Shown in pieces: positions 661-21,372 of a stretch of 37,865 nucleotides of DNA; positions within the stretch are counted from its first letter, which is position 1, and every line of letters starts with the position of its first letter. Where the stretch lies: positions 1-37,865 of IMG/VR virus record IMGVR_UViG_3300047548_001782. The stretch is one strand, 5' to 3'. The notes under the pieces are model-generated. The model did no database searches. It was not told the origin of the DNA and worked only from the letters and a program-made list of their open reading frames with translations. The DNA comes from a virus. The translations under genes and the position numbers were made by a program.

Positions 661-1140
661 TTATTCCTCGTCATCAATGACAACTTCTACTTTATTTTTT
701 TTTCTTTTTTTAGATACTTTTTTTTCTTGTTCTTCCGATAAAGCATTTTCAGTACCTTCTTCACCAGATTCTAGTGCCTTTCTTCCAGAATCCACTTCAT
801 CTATTTGCCAACGAGCTGAACCTACCCAATATCTATTATCAGTATTGACATCCCACCCCCTCCAACTAGCAAAATCTTGCTTTGGTCTAAGTGCTACTTG
901 AAGACCAGCAGCAGCAGCTAATTGCTCTATAAATTCAACTGCTTCTACTGGTTGTAATAAGCACCATAGACTACTAAAATCCCCTCTCATTGAAACTTCA
1001 ATAATTCCACCAAATGCAGTTCCAACGGTAAAAGAACGAGCTCTATTTTTATTGGATTCTAAATTTGCCAATTCAGATTCTTCATAAAGAGCATTAATTT
1101 TTTTTCTTGTTTTACTTTCAGATTGCTTTTTTGCTACCAT
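661..1140 (-). CDS. Conserved phage hypothetical protein, 159 aa
   Basis: The start is set at the ATG of MVAKKQSESKTRKK because GGAGG lies 6 nt upstream (1147-1151). A TTG four codons further upstream is in frame, but it would lie inside that ribosome binding site. The N-terminus is Lys/Arg-rich. The middle (about residues 40-115) is a compact Trp-containing domain with motifs SMRGDFSSLWCLLQ and RYWVGSARWQ. The C-terminus is an acidic then Lys-rich tail (KKRKKNK) ending in VVIDDEE, which is probably disordered. It follows the collagen-like gene by 21 nt and is likely cotranscribed with it. No family assignment can be made; by position it could be a small virion or assembly protein. Confidence 0.65.
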   Translation of the reverse strand: MVAKKQSESKTRKKINALYEESELANLESNKNRARSFTVGTAFGGIIEVSMRGDFSSLWCLLQPVEAVEFIEQLAAAAGLQVALRPKQDFASWRGWDVNTDNRYWVGSARWQIDEVDSGRKALESGEEGTENALSEEQEKKVSKKRKKNKVEVVIDDEE

Positions 1141-1161: not shown

Positions 1162-2829
1162 TTATTGGGCATACCACCTTATAGTTATATATCCACCATC
1201 AGGAACAGTTAGTGAATATGTTGTTAATGGATTTATTGCAACATCATTATAAACAGTTGTGTTTGGTAAATTTCCTGGGTTACCGATGCTAGATGTTCCT
1301 GGTGAACCTGCAGACCCAGGAACTCCATACATAGCAGAGTTTATTGTATTTGTTTTAGTTCCTTGACGACTTGATAGAGGATATTTTGTATTTGCAAAAC
1401 TATTGGGATTCTTATTTCCCTGAGCACCTACAGATCCGAAATTACGACTTCCATCTGCACCTCTTGCTCCATTACCACCGGAACCTGCACCTCCCGCACC
1501 ACCAGCTCCGCCTCCTCCACCACCTGCTCCTCCACAGCAAGGATCATAACCTGGAGTGCCCTGAGCATCCCCACTACATCCTCCTCCACCACCTCCACCA
1601 CCTCCCTGACCTGATGCATTTCCTCCTCCTCCACCAGCTTTTGTTCCACCTTGAGTTCCACCATCTCCACCAGCTCCACCGGCTCCACCAGATCCACCAG
1701 GTCCACCTGCTTTTGTTCCACCGGGCCTTCCTGTTCCTGGGCTGCCTCCAGCCGATCCACCAGATCCACCATCAGAATTTGTCCTTCCGTCATTGCTTGC
1801 ATTTCCTCTATTTCCTCCACCTCCACCATTTCCTGCCGATCCTCCATTACCAGCAGTCCAGTTAGCCCTAAATCCTGCCTGTCCTGGGTTTCCAGTTCCA
1901 TTATTTCCTGGTGAACCTACATTCCCAGCATCACCACCAAAACCAAAATTGCCGGGATTTCCTGGAGTACCTGCTGCACCACCAGGACCACCTTGCCCGT
2001 CTTGCCCTGGATTTCCTGCACCTGCTGGTCCACCAGCACCACCTGGAAAAGTTCTCCCAAATCCACTACCAGTATCTCCAACTGCTCCTATAGTTCCTGG
2101 ATTTCCCGCAGTTCCAAAACTTCCTCCAGTTGTAAAGTTACCTGGATTTTTATTTCCCGGATTTCCTGGAGATGCAGCAACAACATTGCTTCCTGGATTT
2201 AAGTTTCCTCTGCTACCAGCACTTCCCGGACTTCCTGCACCTGCCCCAGAACCATTGGATCCTGCTTGTCCTGGACTTCCTGGGTTGGCTTGCGCTGTAC
2301 CTGCACCACCACCTCTTCCTGCATTTCCGGCACTACCATCTCTACCTGGGAAACTGGATTCTCCTTTCTGTCCTCCTCCACCTCCTCCACCTCCTCCACC
2401 AGATCCACCAGGTCCACCACTTCCTGCCTGACCATCTCTACCTGGAGGGAACTTACCTCCTCCACCTCCACCACCACCACCGCCAGTTCCCGGTGATCCT
2501 GAGTTTGCAAATCCTTGTCCACCTGCACCTCCTAAACCTGCAGTTCCTGCATTTCCTGCAGGTCCTCCGGGACCACCAACTCCATCATTTCCTGCATTTC
2601 CTGCTTCTCCTGCAGGTCCATTTACTCCGTCAGTTCCTCTATTTCCTGCCGCACCACCAACTCCAGCTGTTCCTGGATTTCCTGGTTTCCCTGGTCCACC
2701 TACTCCTTCAAGGTTAACCGTTCTAAGTTTATATGATGGTGCTGTCCAAGTTGCAGGAGCAAAAAAAGTAACGGAACCCGGAGGAACCATCGTTGCTTTT
2801 GCTGTTCTTCTATTAATTCCAAATGACAT
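1162..2829 (-). CDS. Collagen-like / polyglycine-rich tail fibre or adhesin, 555 aa
   Basis: About 430 central residues are Gly-dominated. From about residue 42 there are some 20 uninterrupted Gly-X-Y triplets (GGP GKP GNP GTA ...), then blocks of NPG, SPG and TPG, and polyglycine runs of about ten residues near residues 115 and 150. The N-terminus (PPGSVTFFAPATWTAP) and C-terminus (TTYSLTVPDGGYITIRWYAQ) look like small beta segments that flank glycine-rich phage tip proteins. A Cys cluster (GGCSGDAQGTPGYDPCCGG) sits in the last third and could form disulfides. Strict triplets suggest a collagen triple helix, while the polyglycine blocks resemble the polyglycine-II packing of T-even gp38-type adhesins; either fits a trimeric host-contact protein. 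It lies 6 nt downstream of a prolyl-hydroxylase-like oxygenase on the same strand. The role as adhesin is inference. Confidence 0.7.
   Translation of the reverse strand: MSFGINRRTAKATMVPPGSVTFFAPATWTAPSYKLRTVNLEGVGGPGKPGNPGTAGVGGAAGNRGTDGVNGPAGEAGNAGNDGVGGPGGPAGNAGTAGLGGAGGQGFANSGSPGTGGGGGGGGGGKFPPGRDGQAGSGGPGGSGGGGGGGGGGQKGESSFPGRDGSAGNAGRGGGAGTAQANPGSPGQAGSNGSGAGAGSPGSAGSRGNLNPGSNVVAASPGNPGNKNPGNFTTGGSFGTAGNPGTIGAVGDTGSGFGRTFPGGAGGPAGAGNPGQDGQGGPGGAAGTPGNPGNFGFGGDAGNVGSPGNNGTGNPGQAGFRANWTAGNGGSAGNGGGGGNRGNASNDGRTNSDGGSGGSAGGSPGTGRPGGTKAGGPGGSGGAGGAGGDGGTQGGTKAGGGGGNASGQGGGGGGGGGCSGDAQGTPGYDPCCGGAGGGGGGAGGAGGAGSGGNGARGADGSRNFGSVGAQGNKNPNSFANTKYPLSSRQGTKTNTINSAMYGVPGSAGSPGTSSIGNPGNLPNTTVYNDVAINPLTTYSLTVPDGGYITIRWYAQ
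2372..2398. repeat. Perfect 9-bp tandem repeat x3 in the polyglycine coding region
   Basis: CCTCCTCCA occurs three times without interruption and encodes part of a polyglycine run in the collagen-like protein. Neighbouring stretches are similar imperfect CCT/CCA triplet tracts. Such tracts are prone to in-frame length change by slippage. Confidence 0.75.
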
Positions 2830-2835
2830 TTTCTT

Positions 2836-3432
2836 TTAATCGAAGTAAAACCAACCTGTTATTATATATTTTGCTTTATCACCATGAACAACATTACCCC
2901 TGTGTGAATGGGTAAAAGCTGCTGGCCAGATAAGCATTGTATTTTCTTGTGGAGGAACTCTCATTTTTTGGTATAAAAATTCTGTTTCCCCTGCAGCATC
3001 CTCATCTAAAGAATTCAAATATAAAATATATGTTAATACTCTATTTGCGGAATCACCATCACCCTGTTCTCCATGCCATATATGATAACCTGCTCCAGGA
3101 ACAGTTTTCTGCATCTTTACTGATGTACATTTTATGGACATATCCTGTAAAGTGTCATACTCGGACAAGTATGAATCATAACAATTCTGAAGACCTTCAA
3201 AAAATACATCAATACAGGAATTGCCATTAAATGGTGATGGGTGGTGATTTTTTAAATTTAAAAATAAGAATTCATCATTTTTTGTTGATTTTTTTGCCCC
3301 TTCACTATCTTGACGATTTCCACAATAACCACCAGCACTAAATCTCTCAAATTCGGATATCATATGTGAGCAAAAACCATCAACATATACATTATTATAC
3401 ATTCCAATAAACTCATGATAGTTGCTATTCAT
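2836..3432 (-). CDS. 2OG-Fe(II) oxygenase, prolyl-4-hydroxylase-like, 198 aa
   Basis: This is probably an Fe(II)/2-oxoglutarate-dependent hydroxylase. The jelly-roll core is visible from about residue 100. A likely iron ligand pair lies in YHIWHGEQGD (His120-x-Glu122, HxE instead of the common HxD). It is followed by the strand RVLTYILYLN, then GETEF, a distal His in FTHSHRGN (His175 or His177), and a Lys near residue 186-188 before YIITGW that would bind the 2-oxoglutarate carboxylate. The order and spacing match the phage/prolyl-4-hydroxylase branch of the superfamily. It is the promoter-proximal gene of a unit with the collagen-like fibre gene (6 nt gap), so that fibre is the obvious candidate substrate. 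The enzyme family is well supported; the substrate is inferred from adjacency only. Confidence 0.82.
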   Translation of the reverse strand: MNSNYHEFIGMYNNVYVDGFCSHMISEFERFSAGGYCGNRQDSEGAKKSTKNDEFLFLNLKNHHPSPFNGNSCIDVFFEGLQNCYDSYLSEYDTLQDMSIKCTSVKMQKTVPGAGYHIWHGEQGDGDSANRVLTYILYLNSLDEDAAGETEFLYQKMRVPPQENTMLIWPAAFTHSHRGNVVHGDKAKYIITGWFYFD

Positions 3433-3460
3433 TATTTTTTCATTAATTACTCATATAATT

Positions 3461-3468
3461 TATTTATT
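3461..3468 (-). promoter_or_regulatory. Putative T4-like late promoter box (AATAAATA)
   Basis: The minus strand reads CTAATAAATAAATT, with the box 28 nt before the oxygenase start. It matches the NATAAATA late promoter of T4-like cyanophages. AT-rich background lowers certainty. Confidence 0.5.
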
Positions 3469-3471
3469 AGT

Positions 3472-6400
3472 CTATGTTGAGTAATTATATAGTGCTACTG
3501 CACCATACCAAGTAGTTCCCTGATCTGGGGTTACAAAAATCCAAACATCAGTTCTAGATGCTTCTAAAGTTCTTACTGGTGCTAAACCATTAGGGAACTT
3601 AAAGTTAGTTGGCCAAGAAACAGAAAGATTTGCAGAGTTATTTCTTAAATATAAAGTAAAACTAGAAGCAGTAGTTGCACCAGTCAGCACATTGGAAACA
3701 GTAAACGAACTATTTCCAGTAATATTAACAGTAAATACATTAGCAACGTCTAAATCTAAATTTATTGCTCCACTTCTATTACCTAATGCTTGAACTGTTT
3801 CACCATAATTTCTCAGAACAAGTCTAGTTACGTTCACTCCATTGAATGTGCTATCTGCATTTACATCTATTGATGTAAATCTAGCAGATGCTCTTGTTGT
3901 TATACCAATTGGTGTATTATCAATATTACCACCATTAATGTCAACATTATTTCTAATAGTGGTAATTCCCGATGTACCACCAATATTCACCCAAGAAGCA
4001 GCACCAGCAAAATCTACTCTAGTAGCATTGGTATTAATTAATTTAAATAATCCAGTAGTAGTTGTAGTTAAATCATCACCATCAACATTTAAATCACCAT
4101 CAATGTCTACATTATTTCTTATTCTTGTGGTTCCTGTTGTAGCTCCAAGAACTATATTTGTTGCTGCACCAAAAATATTTGCTGTTGTTACTGTGGAATT
4201 TAGTAGATTAAATGTAGTTTGATCAGTTGTAATGTCACCACCATTTACTGCTAGATCCCCACCAAATTGACCATTGCCACCAACAAACAGTCTCTTAGCA
4301 ACTCCAAGACCACCTTTTACTACTAATGCACCAGTATCAGTGGAATCGGACTCTTTAGTACCACGTATAGTAGTTGTTGATTGATCATTATCAATCGCAA
4401 TATTAACATTTCTTGCACCAAAGAATGCATTTACTGTTGGATTTACTGAAGGAAGTAGACTGAAAGATTGAACTCCAGGAGCATCAATCAAATCACCATA
4501 CATTATAATATCGTTAAGAACAGTTAGAGTTCCATTTGATTCAACTTTTAATTTTGTTTCACCAACAGCATCAAAATTCTCGCTTCCATAAGCAACAGTT
4601 GTTGTTGGGTTCGCAAGTTTCCAAGAATAACCATCACTAGTATCAATACCAGCATACCAACGACGATTTGCATTATTATTCGTAATATCCCAGGACAGTA
4701 CAACATCCCCAGTACCACCTTGATTAATTTTGAAGTGAGCACCAGCAAGATTTTGCCCAGAGTTATTCTGGAATGTTGTTACTGTTCCCGAAGCACCAAC
4801 TCTTATTCTTTCTAATCCATTTGTACATAAAGAAATTGTAGAACCAAAATCAGATGCATTTAATTTAAGAACTCCACTGCCTCTGTGTAAGATTTCAGAA
4901 TCAACAGCACTACCAATACCTGCCGGACGGATGATCTTTAAAGCACCATCAGGATAAACTCTATCGTCATTATGTAATGACAGAGATGAACCAAGATTTG
5001 TACTTCCAACACCAAGTCTCAAATCTCTAGCATTATTGATTGATGCCTTAATCTCACCACCAATTGAAGTCGTAAAACCAGAAATTAATTCAAACTTATT
5101 GCCATTTACAATTAAATCATCAATAATATTTGTGATTCCACTAAAACTATTAATTGTTAAGTTTCCAGCTGTGGTGTCAATTGTGTTGTCATTAGTTACT
5201 GCGATTTGAATATTTCCAAAATCTGCTCCTGGTCCATAAATGTTAGAATTAAACTGAACAACTCCATCAAATGTAGAAATTCCAACTACTTCTAGATCAT
5301 TTAATCTGGATATACCAGAATAGTGAATCTGAGTGTAATTTGTTGTAAGACCAGTTACTGGGTCTAAACCAGTGGCATAAAAATATCCAGTTCTATTGAC
5401 AAAAATATTTTGGAAAGTAACATTTCCTAATGTTTGTGGTTGAGTGAAAATTACACTTCCATCTACAGTTAAATTCTCTACTCTACTTTCACCACTAACA
5501 ACAAAATCAAAGTTTGTATTGTCTGGAGTATTGACGGATAGTTTATCAACACCCATATATAAACTACCAGCATCTCTACTGATTAAACCAAATGGTCTCC
5601 ATTCAGTTCCAACACGAACATGACCAATATATTCATCTGGATTAGATAGTAAAGATATATCACCAGGACGAGAAGATGGAATAGTAAGTGAAGTTGGGGT
5701 AGATATACCAACTGTAATTAGTTTTGGTTGAGATGCAGTACCCTTTATGAATAGATTTTTGGTTTCAATACCAAATTCAGATAAATTAGTAACTTTTTGA
5801 GTAAAGTTTACTGGTCCATAGAATTGGGAAGTTTGATTGTTACCTTCACCACCTTCAACTGTAATTCTTTGTCTTACAAGTAATTCATCAAAAATTCCAC
5901 TTGAAGATGATCCACCCTGTCCCTGTGCATCATCTCCAGTATATGTAAGAATTGGAGCATCAACTACTGTTTGTTCACCAGTTGCAGAACTTAACTTGGT
6001 TGCACCAGAATAGAATTCACCAATATCATTCATTCCGGTGTATACAACAGTTCCACCTCTTCTTTCTTTTGACTGAGAGACAATAACTTCATCATCAGAA
6101 AGAACTCTATCTTGCTTCTGAGGCATACCAGTTGAATAGTTACCAGGACCATAACCAAGATACTCAAAGGTATGACTTGATGCTCTCATAAATGAAGGTC
6201 TACGTAATTCTGATGGAATTACCTTTATTTTTTTCGCAATAGATCCAGAAAGAGCATTGCCCTTAAATGTTCCTAGCTGTCCCCTTAAAACAGTAAATGG
6301 ATTTTCATTGCCCGCAATCCTTATAATTTCACTATTAATTACAAAATAATCTCCTCGTTTTATTCCACTAGGATCAGAAAAACTTACTGTACTACTAGTT

Positions 6401-9400
6401 AAATCTATTGCGGTATTAATATAAGCATCAAAACTATCATACAAATACAATCCTCTAGAGAAAAGATTTTCTTCACCGTTTCCTAGACTTCTTCCATTTG
6501 AGCTAAATCCTCTCTTAAGAACAGATCCCTGAGTAACTCCTGATATTTCATTTGTGGATCTAGAAATAAAGGTAAAAGTAGTTAATCCTACAATATCTTT
6601 AATTACCGCATATCCATTTAAATTTGAATTACCACTTTCAATGATTTTAATTTTATTTCCTGGTAATAATCCATGAGCAGACTGAGTAGTTACTGTAGTT
6701 ATTCCTGTATCAGTATCGCTTAATTCTGCATTTAAAATTGAGATTGGTCCACTGGAAATAACCACAAATGGACTTTGGTTGTTTGTATTTTGTATATAAG
6801 ATGGTAATTGTTTTTCTGTATATAATAGCAATTCTTTAGAATTGGGTACAGATAATACCCTATATACATCATTTAAATCTTTTTGGAAAAATCCACTAAG
6901 TTCCACAGAATAATCTTTTGCATCTACGATAGATGTTACTGTAACAATACTTGGAGAACTACCTCCAGGAATACTGAGAGTATCATTGACACTATATGCA
7001 CTTCCAGAATCCAATAATTCAACATTAGTTACTTGTCCAGATGCATTGGTCTCTACTTTAACAGTTGCTCCTCTACCATTTGATATTACTTGCTGAAGAG
7101 TTCTTGCATATAAAGTAGAAGACGCTGGATATCCAGATCCAGAACTAAATGTAAACGATTTTATAGAATTTAAGTTATGTTCTATTTCAGTTCGTGCAGA
7201 AATAGTTGTACTTCCAATACCAGTAACTTGTGCATCTGTTAGTGCTATTCCAATTCTTGCATTTTTGACATAATATGATATTGCTTCTTTTGTTATGGAA
7301 TTCTTTTTATCATTTGTTATAACTCTTCCAATAACAGATAAATCGGAATAACTTACTGCTGCATCTGGATCTGATTCAATATTATCACGATCTAGTTGTG
7401 GATATAAGTTTCTTACATCCTGATTAAATTTTTTGTCTGATAAATTAAATCCTACTTGCTCAGATGGTGAAACGTTTGATGCAAGAGCAGTTAAGTGATA
7501 AACACCATCTTGACCTTCTTGACCAGGAATATGTTTCTTGATCTGGGTACTTCTATATACAAAAAATGTATCTTTATAAGATTCTCTTGAGACTACTGGG
7601 AGACTTTCTCTTTGTTGTCTTGTAGTTCTGGAATTAATATCATTTGTAAATGATCCGGGGTTAGTAGTAACTCCAGAAATTGAGTAAGTGAACTGCTTTG
7701 AATTAAGAACGGATGTAATTGTATGGAATCCATTAAATGTAGAGGTTATTCCTATTGCATCTGGATTATTTGTACTTCTTATTTTTTGTATCTTTACATT
7801 ATCACCAACATACATTCTATGAGGAAGTTCTGTAGTGATAGTGACTTCTTGCTCACCATTAATAATTACACCACCAGAAGCATTGACAATAATCTTTTCA
7901 TTTCTTAAATCTCTGGAACTAGTCAATACATCATTGGTATATGAAATGCTTGTTACACCAACTGTTTTGGATTCTTGTAAAATAAATCCAGCAGTTGGTT
8001 GTCTTGCATTTGTGAATTCTTTTGGAATAACATATCTAAGTCGGTATATTTTATCATTAATTGAACGACTATCTGATATTCTTCTTATGAATGTTGATGA
8101 AGTTTCATTTCCAAGAACAACAATACCAGTATCTAAGATTGCATAATATATTTCGTTTTCTGATGGAACCAAAGATCCTGTGATATACCAATTATTTTCT
8201 GCGGGATCCCATTGTATTGGATGTCCAATTTCACCTGGTAGTTTATCTGAAACTCTACTTACAATTTTTAATCTTCCACCATTATTATTAATTCCCAAAA
8301 TAGGAATTCCCGATAAAGCATCATTAAGTGATTGTGCTACTTTCAACTGTGATGATCCAAATCCATCTGTGATTGCATAATATATTCCATCATTCTCCAG
8401 TCCATCTGGTACTTGTCCAGTATCACTAGTAATTCTTATCTTTTCACCATTAATTAATTGGTGATTAGTAGTTAAAGTAAATAAATTTGATACAATATTA
8501 TTGGTAGAACCAGTTCTTTCTATATCATATTCTTTAAACGCAGAAACTCCATTTCCACCATCCACTGGCATTAATATTGGTGTGGTGTAAGTTGTTTGTG
8601 CTGTACCAATCGTGATGGTTAGATTTAATTTATCATCTCTTGATGCACCTAACCTATAACCATCTACTTGGTGTACAGGTAAAATTTCCTCATTAGTTGC
8701 TCCAAAAATATATAATTTACTTATATCTGATGAATTTATAATTTTTTCGGTATCTAAGGATACCCAAGATACTACGTTTTCTTCTTCTGGTATCTCTCTT
8801 GGTGGTAAAATGTGAGTAACATATCCAACATCATCCCTATCAAAGGATTCTACTTTAAACCCTTCCGATTCTAATGATGTAGCACCAAAGTTTGAGTTTG
8901 AGTTGGTGATAGACATATCAGAACCAGACTCAGTTAAAAAGTGTCTGGCAAAACCAATAGCAAAAACGGAAACGTTTTGGATGAATGCATCATTAGATGC
9001 ACGAATATGGTAGTTCTCGTACTTAGGTTTAAATATTGATCTGGAATTAGTATGTAATGGTCTATCTACACTATTGAGAGGAAGTGTAGCATTATCATAA
9101 AATGCACCATCTTTATATAAGATGAATGCATTATTATCTTTTTGTAGAGAAACTCCAGTAAACTGAGCAACAACCATTGATTTGAATCCTGTTGCTTTAG
9201 CACCATCTGCCCACAATCCGTTCATTCCATAAACAGATCTAAGGGAACAGTTGAAAATATATGGAGAAGCAGAACTTACTGTATCACTTCCTACAGTCAA
9301 GGATGCAGTATCAATATCATTAACAGAAGGTAAAAATTCAGATGGCGCTTCATTGGTAACATAAGTAAATGTAGTTAATCCAACTACTTCTTTAACTGTA

Positions 9401-10483: not shown

Positions 10484-11101
10484 CTAGGCAATTGATTTAA
10501 TGTCTTTTTCCCATTTTAATTTTTGTTCAAGTTCTTTATCAAAAATCATAAGATATCTATGCTTTCTAGTTCTTTCTCTCCACTCACCATTTTCACCTTT
10601 AACACTTCCCCTTGAGTGCTTTGTTCCATCAGCATAGTAAAAATCTTTTTTTGGAGCAGTTAACCCATAGTATTGAAAATTGCAAGCTCTGTATATAACT
10701 CCAGTGTGCTTACTAGAGTCAGCGTAACTAAGAATAGCACGAACTGTGGCATCTTTTCTAAATCTCCTTATACAACGACTGACGAACCAAGATGTTATAT
10801 TATACTCTTCTTTTTGGATATCAGGATGTATACAAAGTCGTGAGAGTTCGTATATTCCCTCTTGCTGATTTCTTTCTAGACCAAATGCACCTACTGCAAT
10901 TTCTGGAACTGGGAGACCAGTAAAAATGCAAGCACCAAGACACCCGCCAATATTAAGGATGTCTGTGAATGAGTTGCGGTATAATCCATAATTGAAACCA
11001 GATTTAAAATCTTTAGATTCGTCTTTAAGATAATGGTAAGTATAAAGAAGATTTTTGATATCTTCTTTACTTACTCTATCTATATAAAAATCGGATTTCA
11101 T
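10484..11101 (-). CDS. mom-like: Mu Mom-like DNA adenine modification protein (GNAT fold), 205 aa
   Basis: This protein resembles the Mu Mom family, which converts adenine in phage DNA to a methylcarbamoyl form and blocks restriction enzymes. Visible hallmarks are TYHYLKDESK near the N-terminus (His23-Tyr24, the expected conserved His-Tyr), GCLGACIFTGLPVPEIAVGA (residues 53-72), the YELSRLCIHPD segment with Arg89, SWFVSRCIRRFR (104-115), and the best signature, ILSYADSSKHTGVIYRACNF (123-142), with Asp128 in the SYAD motif. The fold is a GNAT acyltransferase variant. It lies inside the structural cluster but has no structural-protein features, and follows three small non-structural ORFs. Chemistry and target are inferred from the family; a generic GNAT acetyltransferase is the alternative. 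Confidence 0.75.
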   Translation of the reverse strand: MKSDFYIDRVSKEDIKNLLYTYHYLKDESKDFKSGFNYGLYRNSFTDILNIGGCLGACIFTGLPVPEIAVGAFGLERNQQEGIYELSRLCIHPDIQKEEYNITSWFVSRCIRRFRKDATVRAILSYADSSKHTGVIYRACNFQYYGLTAPKKDFYYADGTKHSRGSVKGENGEWRERTRKHRYLMIFDKELEQKLKWEKDIKSIA

Positions 11102-20688: not shown

Positions 20689-21372
20689 CTATAACTCCAA
20701 CCACTGAGATGGGTGTGTGCATCCTTGATGGTGTTTATAATGCTCTGGTTTAAGAGTAACTCTTAAATCACCAGCAATAGCACACCTTTCATTGACTCTG
20801 GGAATAGTTTTTTTGGTATGATGATAAGTTCCTGTTGGCATTATTAACACAGTACCTTCGTGTGGAGTTATGGTATAATGATTGCAGTTAAACTTATTAA
20901 ACCCAGTCATTACATTATACTCATCCGCAACATCAAACCATCCCTCGCATACTTGATTTGCATTGTCATCTGGAACTCTACTTACGACGAACTTATCAGA
21001 TGTGTCGTCAGTGTTTAAATAATAAACAAAACTTATATTTGCTTCATTATGCTTATGAAATGCTAATGGTGGGGTAGTATCATCTCTATGGTATACCACC
21101 CAAGATTTTACTATATGATAGTCCATTAAAGTATAGTCAATCCCCAAAACTTCAAGATACTCATTTAATGCATCCTTTAGGGAGATGAAAAATTGCTTAT
21201 ACTCTTCTTTTAGATGCACGAATATTCTTGAAGATGCCTCTGGAGACTCATATTCATATCCATTAAACCAATATTTCTTTAAACTTTCGTAGTGCTTTTC
21301 CTTAAATTCTTTATGGCAACTTATAGATGTCTGATGAACTGCTAAAGGAAAAACTTCGTGAGTTTTTCTCAT
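20689..21372 (-). CDS. Second 2OG-Fe(II) oxygenase-like protein, 227 aa
   Basis: The predicted double-stranded beta-helix core has LAFHKHNEANISFVYYLNTD (residues 103-122), with His106/His108 and Glu110 as candidate iron ligands. It is followed by ITPHEGTVLIMPTGTYHHTK (168-187) with the distal His at 184/185, and Arg196 in NERCAIAGDL as candidate 2-oxoglutarate binder. The pattern resembles phage 2OG-FeII oxygenases of the PF13759 type (HxH ... FP..H ... R). It is only distantly like the oxygenase at 2836-3432 and is not a duplicate by eye. It lies between two structural genes (8 nt after the 290-aa gene), so a virion-protein substrate is plausible. A sugar or metabolite substrate is the alternative. 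Confidence 0.7.
   Translation of the reverse strand: MRKTHEVFPLAVHQTSISCHKEFKEKHYESLKKYWFNGYEYESPEASSRIFVHLKEEYKQFFISLKDALNEYLEVLGIDYTLMDYHIVKSWVVYHRDDTTPPLAFHKHNEANISFVYYLNTDDTSDKFVVSRVPDDNANQVCEGWFDVADEYNVMTGFNKFNCNHYTITPHEGTVLIMPTGTYHHTKKTIPRVNERCAIAGDLRVTLKPEHYKHHQGCTHPSQWLEL

Follow-up and report, generated by a model that had tools for sequence, protein, structure and literature searches.

The window analysed here is the whole of a 37,865-base uncultured virus record, one end of which carries a block of genes transcribed from the minus strand in the order 2320-aa tail fibre, 198-aa oxygenase, 555-aa Gly-rich protein, 159-aa protein of a family that we call NRARS, and 195-aa tail-fibre-associated protein, after which the contig ends, Table 1. 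The oxygenase and Gly-rich genes are direct neighbours with a gap of 6 nt, just as the earlier note on this DNA had read them. The NRARS protein has no match in the PDB or in Pfam. A motif scan showed that the motif near the C-terminus of the tail fibre (DVWIFVTPDQGTTWYG...) recurs directly 5' of the oxygenase block in many relatives. On the other side of the block, two related loci (L126 and L020) have Phage_tail_APC (PF16778) proteins at the position of the 195-aa gene, and in a group of smaller phages the gene following NRARS bears this same tail assembly chaperone domain, while in the window itself the evidence for fibre assembly downstream consists solely of the phrog_10508 match and a weak DUF4376 match. 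The Gly-rich protein is thus encoded together with a tail fibre and an assembly chaperone, in the sense of a fibre motif upstream and PF16778 downstream in relatives.

Table 1 Genes of the block in order of transcription, with positions in the window
Feature	Position	Strand	Evidence
Tail fibre protein, 2320 aa	3472..10434	-	phrog_529 tail fiber; C-terminal motif DVWIFVTPDQGTTWYG... (motif scan)
Predicted prolyl-4-hydroxylase-family 2OG-Fe(II) oxygenase, 198 aa	2836..3432	-	PF13640; PDB profile matches; AF2/Foldseek; H120/E122/H177/K188
Gly-rich, X-Pro-Gly-rich putative tail-tip adhesin, 555 aa; proposed substrate	1162..2829	-	31 PG/44 Pro; AF2 beta core; Pam3 match; linkage in 59/59 loci
Small conserved NRARS family protein, 159 aa; cassette marker	661..1140	-	Conserved motif family; independent search anchor
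Probable tail-fibre assembly chaperone-like protein, 195 aa	31..618	-	phrog_10508 tail fiber protein; weak DUF4376

The source of the window is most likely a T4-like cyanophage, since its gp32-like protein is 68.7% identical to the counterpart in Synechococcus phage S-SCSM2R, and psbA is present on three related contigs (112, 207 and 74 kb) that bear the same genes. Two further features of the window deserve mention. A second 2OG-Fe(II) oxygenase gene (20689-21372, minus strand; phrog_81, PF13759 E 3e-7) lies between baseplate and fibre genes, apart from the block, and a gene for a Mom-like DNA modification protein (10484-11101, minus strand; PF25680 E 5e-22) sits among the tail fibre genes.

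The oxygenase and its glycine-rich neighbour

The 198-aa protein had been recognised as a 2OG-Fe(II) oxygenase from an HxE pair, a distal His and a Lys, and this assignment is borne out by matches to PF13640 (E 9e-12) and phrog_61 (E 3e-36), with H120, E122, H177 and K188 invariant in 69 of 69 relatives. The residues of a two-His-one-carboxylate iron site and a basic residue predicted to bind 2OG are present, with Glu replacing the usual Asp; the resulting HxE pair is less usual for prolyl 4-hydroxylases (P4Hs) than HxD but not disqualifying, since a D315E variant of PHD2 has been crystallised (4uwd, among the structures in the Foldseek listing). When a profile built from 38 relatives was searched against the PDB, only five sequences matched, all of them named P4H (E 4e-8 to 1.5e-7), the best being the viral P4H of PBCV-1 (E 4e-8) and the Bacillus P4H (E 4.5e-8). 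The AF2 model (pLDDT 89) is a double-stranded beta-helix with P4H/PHD topology: its top Foldseek match is again the PBCV-1 enzyme (5c5t, E 2e-11), and VIA aligns it with the P. putida P4H and PHD2 at Z 17-20 and an rmsd of about 3 over about 180 residues. Profile and model together predict a 2OG-Fe(II) oxygenase of the prolyl-4-hydroxylase family.

Homologues less closely related to the enzyme (about 35% identity) occur in other contexts, without Gly-rich neighbours, and any claim about adhesin hydroxylation is therefore limited to the present clade. HTVC027P and two single-cell marine viruses carry the enzyme with no Gly-rich gene beside it, and in the cultured relatives S-RSM4, ACG-2014e and Sf-CH1b the gene follows tail-fibre-like genes and the next genes are not Gly-rich. 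In the cultured cyanophages of loci L001, L002 and L003 the enzyme gene comes directly after tail-fibre-like genes and more 2OG oxygenase genes lie within a few genes, and a role in fibre modification may therefore extend beyond the Gly-rich arrangement.

The 555-aa protein is 36% Gly and contains 44 Pro, 31 of which are followed by Gly, compared to 16.0 +/- 3.0 expected by shuffling (none of 2000 shuffles reached the observed number). Its description as a run of strict Gly-X-Y triplets with dozens of NPG, SPG and TPG was overstated: the longest unbroken runs comprise 19 and 13 triplets, with poly-Gly and non-triplet stretches elsewhere, and the three tripeptides add up to 19 (10, 7 and 2, respectively), the 31 being the count of all X-Pro-Gly. 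Since the triplet runs extend to at most 19 and the long uninterrupted Gly-X-Y region of a collagen is missing, the protein is, judged by its sequence, not a collagen. The label collagen-like survives as a statement on composition only: Pfam returns no collagen match, and what the model predicts is a beta core into which Gly-rich stretches are inserted. The matches to collagens returned by a profile of the Gly-rich family were rejected as low-complexity, composition-driven hits with huge bias terms.

In the AF2 model of the monomer, the core is assembled from residues of about 15-65, 244-285 and 500-555 (pLDDT mostly 80-98), and two long Gly-rich insertions are modelled with low confidence. 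VIA matches the core best to the fibre of cyanophage Pam3 (7ypx, Z 6.7, rmsd 2.7 over 83 residues, 23% identity), which is suggestive, although a Z of this size lies in a range that can reflect a common arrangement. Plain Foldseek found no significant match for the Gly-rich model, which is poor outside the core. The Gly_rich_2 family (PF21722) matches neither the window protein nor its relatives in L008 and L017, and it does match Gly-rich proteins of two loci without the oxygenases (L038 and L051). As far as the model can tell, the protein most resembles the glycine-rich tip adhesins Pam3 gp24 and S16 gp38, and putative adhesin of this type is a better description than collagen.

Conservation of the cassette in relatives

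A scan seeded with the oxygenase returned 39 loci, and wherever the enzyme was 52-78% identical and the downstream flank was available, the Gly-rich gene was next or next but one. As an independent test of linkage, we searched with the NRARS family alone and obtained 78 non-redundant loci. The Gly-rich gene adjoins NRARS in all 69 of those with at least 1.3 kb of 5' flank, and both the Gly-rich gene and the P4H-type enzyme are present in all 59 with at least 3 kb of flank. Among the 34 loci with wide flanks, a PKHD-type enzyme is found in 30, and at least three of four oxygenase families in 28. By comparison, any of these four families occurs in 3 of 119 control loci picked for poly-Gly DNA. 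The pairing of oxygenase and Gly-rich gene is not a matter of chance.

The expectation that the pair would be found adjacent in relatives thus holds throughout the 59 loci, but not for cultured cyanophages: tblastn searches of 50,697 phage records with the NRARS protein, the window Gly-rich protein and a Gly-rich protein of the group C loci described below gave no match, with the proviso that low-complexity filtering weakens searches with Gly-rich queries. The number of enzymes, on the other hand, had been underestimated, as the cassette carries two to four 2OG oxygenases. Those of a single cassette belong to different families (PF13640 and PF13759). The layout is P4H-Gly-NRARS-x-PKHD-HYD3 in T4-like phages and HYD4-PKHD-P4H-HYD3-Gly-NRARS in smaller phages, such as one of 62 kb (G008) whose portal protein is related to those of HTVC027P, DSL-LC04 and Planktothrix phages; the content of the cassette is kept even though the order changes. 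Where the window contig breaks off, the closest relative (L004, with an enzyme 78% identical) continues with a PKHD-type and a third oxygenase-like gene, and the best explanation is that the window contains one end of the cassette. Distances between P4H-type enzymes are correlated with those between the NRARS proteins in both groups of phages (r of 0.78 and 0.54, 0 of 2000 permutations), which is the pattern expected of co-inheritance.

Among GTDB genomes there is a single cassette locus, L126, on a phage-like contig in a Verrucomicrobiales MAG. Downstream of its cassette (L126 7119-9617) lie a gene for a tryptophan halogenase (PF04820 E 3.5e-102) and another that shows a sulfotransferase-like PKAGSTS motif. 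We considered a halogenase or sulfotransferase as a cassette member and dropped the idea, the motifs being present in this one cassette locus only.

Position of prolines in the glycine-rich proteins

If the enzymes require a Pro that precedes Gly, then PG should outnumber GP in the Gly-rich proteins linked to them, and not in other Gly-rich proteins. This is what we observe. The 76 linked proteins contain 1342 PG and 317 GP, with PG in excess in every one of them, whereas 37 unlinked phage Gly-rich proteins contain 209 PG and 233 GP, with PG in excess in 15 of 35 (Mann-Whitney p 3e-11, where the 76 linked proteins form one family and are not independent). When only G-X-Y-G sites are counted, Pro is found 885 times at Y and 151 times at X in the linked proteins, and 120 times at Y and 169 times at X in the unlinked ones. 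Proline at Y is the pattern expected in the presence of a hydroxylase, because bacterial collagens that lack one carry Thr at Y and keep most of their Pro at X (PMC8968730). Prolines in PG are conserved at 65% and other residues preceding Gly at 48% (13 pairs), which agrees with selection, but the signal is weak because prolines elsewhere are conserved as well (75%). The X position shows a feature of its own: Asn occupies 45% of the G-X-Y-G sites in linked and 14% in unlinked Gly-rich proteins, and could possibly be a second hydroxylation target or reflect a structural rule.

Two outliers among the proteins initially counted as unlinked were strongly biased towards PG, with 61 of 71 and 26 of 32 prolines before Gly. 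One of them already had a PKHD-type gene nearby, and the other came from a clipped locus; once this was extended, genes of the PKHD and HYD4 types appeared a short way downstream of the Gly-rich one. In the stretches read, these group C loci (L259 and L260) contain no P4H-type or NRARS gene. They support the association of a hydroxylase with an adjacent PG-type adhesin, and as their proline bias occurs without a P4H-type enzyme, the bias does not single out that enzyme. L260 provides an internal contrast, as one and the same phage encodes a GPQ-type collagen-like fibre protein (2039-4366; 119 GP, 8 PG) and a PG-type Gly-rich adhesin (5166-8678; 61 PG, 2 GP), the latter followed downstream by a PKHD-type gene and, close beyond it, two glycosyltransferase genes. 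Between the Gly-rich and PKHD-type genes, each of the two group C phages has a further gene of about 240 aa (L259 5215-5934, minus strand; L260 8729-9454, plus strand), with a weak DUF6065 match in L259.

Proposed modification of the adhesin and known systems

Taken together, gene content, linkage, conserved active sites, the predicted enzyme fold and the proline bias of the linked proteins lead us to propose, with a probability of roughly two in three, that the cassette serves to hydroxylate the phage's own receptor-binding Gly-rich adhesin. Its presence in some cyanobacterial and other aquatic phages, with two to four hydroxylase-type enzymes around one Pro/Gly-rich adhesin, suggests chemical modification of the fibre tip. 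Catalytic activity, the choice of substrate, the role assigned to each enzyme and a place for the product at the tip of the virion fibre, where its modification could affect binding, are our inferences. Most likely, the oxygenases would act on the adhesin while it is unfolded or held by its chaperone, hydroxylating chiefly those Pro that precede Gly, often in N-P-G, and possibly residues of other kinds. Once modified, the Gly-rich insertions might pack as a bundle of extended helices at the fibre tip, with hydroxyls on the exposed lattice or loops changing stability, hydration or receptor contacts. On balance we also lean, by a small margin, towards a more general form of the proposal: a widespread system of so far uncultured phages, with two to four 2OG oxygenases dedicated to hydroxylating the adhesin at many Pro and possibly Asn sites, as a phage counterpart of collagen maturation on a non-collagen Gly-rich fold.

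The earlier note had proposed that a phage enzyme modifies the fibre protein encoded beside it, the two forming a self-contained pair within a tail gene cluster. The invariable pairing and a proline bias specific to the linked proteins support this idea, but the group C loci keep the P4H-type enzyme from being singled out. It is therefore possible, though we rather doubt it, that the adhesin is indeed the substrate but that the PKHD-type enzyme takes the prolines, with the P4H-type enzyme modifying another position or residue, for example the Asn at X. Such a division would suit L259 and L260, the striking enrichment of Asn and the different families of the enzymes within one cassette; yet it is the P4H-type profile that finds the proven P4Hs, and it is this enzyme that accompanies the adhesin in every NRARS locus with sufficient flank.

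It has been proposed that P4H-domain genes of cyanophages, some of them near uvsX/uvsY, act in DNA repair (PMC2984593), and a bacterial P4H structure was solved in complex with EF-Tu (4iw3). One could also speculate that the true targets of the oxygenases are host proteins, nucleotides or metabolites, that their adjacency to the adhesin reflects a shared late operon, and that the PG pattern is a structural need of a Gly-rich fold; the distant homologues without Gly-rich neighbours would fit. We find this unlikely, as the linkage survives changes in gene order, the PG bias is absent from other phage Gly-rich proteins, and the two unexpected PG-rich proteins turned out to be oxygenase-linked. 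Improbable, too, is that hydroxylation is only a first step, preparing the fibre tip for the attachment of sugars or other groups. Hydroxyproline does carry glycosylation in plant cell-wall proteins, and L260 has its two glycosyltransferase genes, but an unsystematic look at the cassettes brought up no such gene as a regular part of them. A true collagen triple helix stabilised by hydroxyproline is very improbable despite the two unbroken runs with some Pro at Y and the compositional profile matches to collagens, because the triplets are repeatedly broken, long poly-Gly runs intervene, those matches are low-complexity, and the N-terminal, central and C-terminal segments of the modelled beta core would close the chain on itself, as in the loops of gp38 and Pam3 gp24 rather than a rod. 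The earlier observation was thus largely right with its details overstated, and its interpretation right in its core and wrong in the collagen picture.

Marine phages often carry prolyl-hydroxylase-like genes for which there is no explanation so far, and a survey states that viral use of prolyl 4-hydroxylase "remains cryptic" (PMC9301287). The present locus offers a concrete substrate candidate for one clade of these enzymes. Its parts, a viral P4H and an adhesin of the gp38/Pam3 type, are of known kinds, in a combination of which we found no description in the open-access literature, nor did we find there any report of phage adhesin hydroxylation. If the proposal is correct, phages would enzymatically tailor their receptor-binding fibre tip after translation, and the properties of the adhesin during infection, perhaps with them the recognition of the host, could vary with O2, iron and 2-oxoglutarate. 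The cassettes would then also be compact sets of enzyme and substrate with which hydroxylated glycine-rich protein materials could be made in bacteria.

Among known systems, the 2OG-Fe(II) oxygenases of PHROG 61 from marine phages are of the same family as the window enzyme and have an EGLN3-like structure; their function is unassigned in that source, where we met no adhesin linkage (PMC12774648). The vCPH of PBCV-1 (5c5t/5c5u) shares with the window enzyme, as its top Foldseek and best profile match, a virus-encoded P4H fold, but belongs to a eukaryotic algal virus and is only about 17% identical. We know of no fixed adjacent substrate and no multi-oxygenase cassette for it. Mimivirus collagens undergo lysine hydroxylation and glycosylation. 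With its own hydroxylase, mimivirus is likewise a virus modifying its own GXY proteins (mentioned in PMC8968730), although a giant virus of amoebae. The P4H of Bacillus anthracis (5hv0, 3itq) is thought to act on surface GXY proteins such as the collagen-like exosporium protein BclA, and favours Pro at Y in (PPG)n (PMC8968730), but this is a cellular spore-surface system in which a single enzyme serves a true collagen-like trimer. On the side of the adhesin, cyanophage Pam3 gp24 recognises its receptor through a Gly-rich domain and is served by a chaperone of its own, gp25 (PMC9608196), whereas the whole Pam3 fibre is one protein; the words "proline" and "hydroxy" are absent from the text of that paper. 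The gp38 of phage S16, to which we liken the window protein by its layout, has a smaller Gly-rich domain and no hydroxylase described with it, but it is likewise a Gly-rich tip adhesin encoded with the fibre, with a beta core and Gly-rich loop extensions that pack as polyglycine II helices, forming a polyglycine-sandwich adhesin at the fibre tip (PMC6851490).
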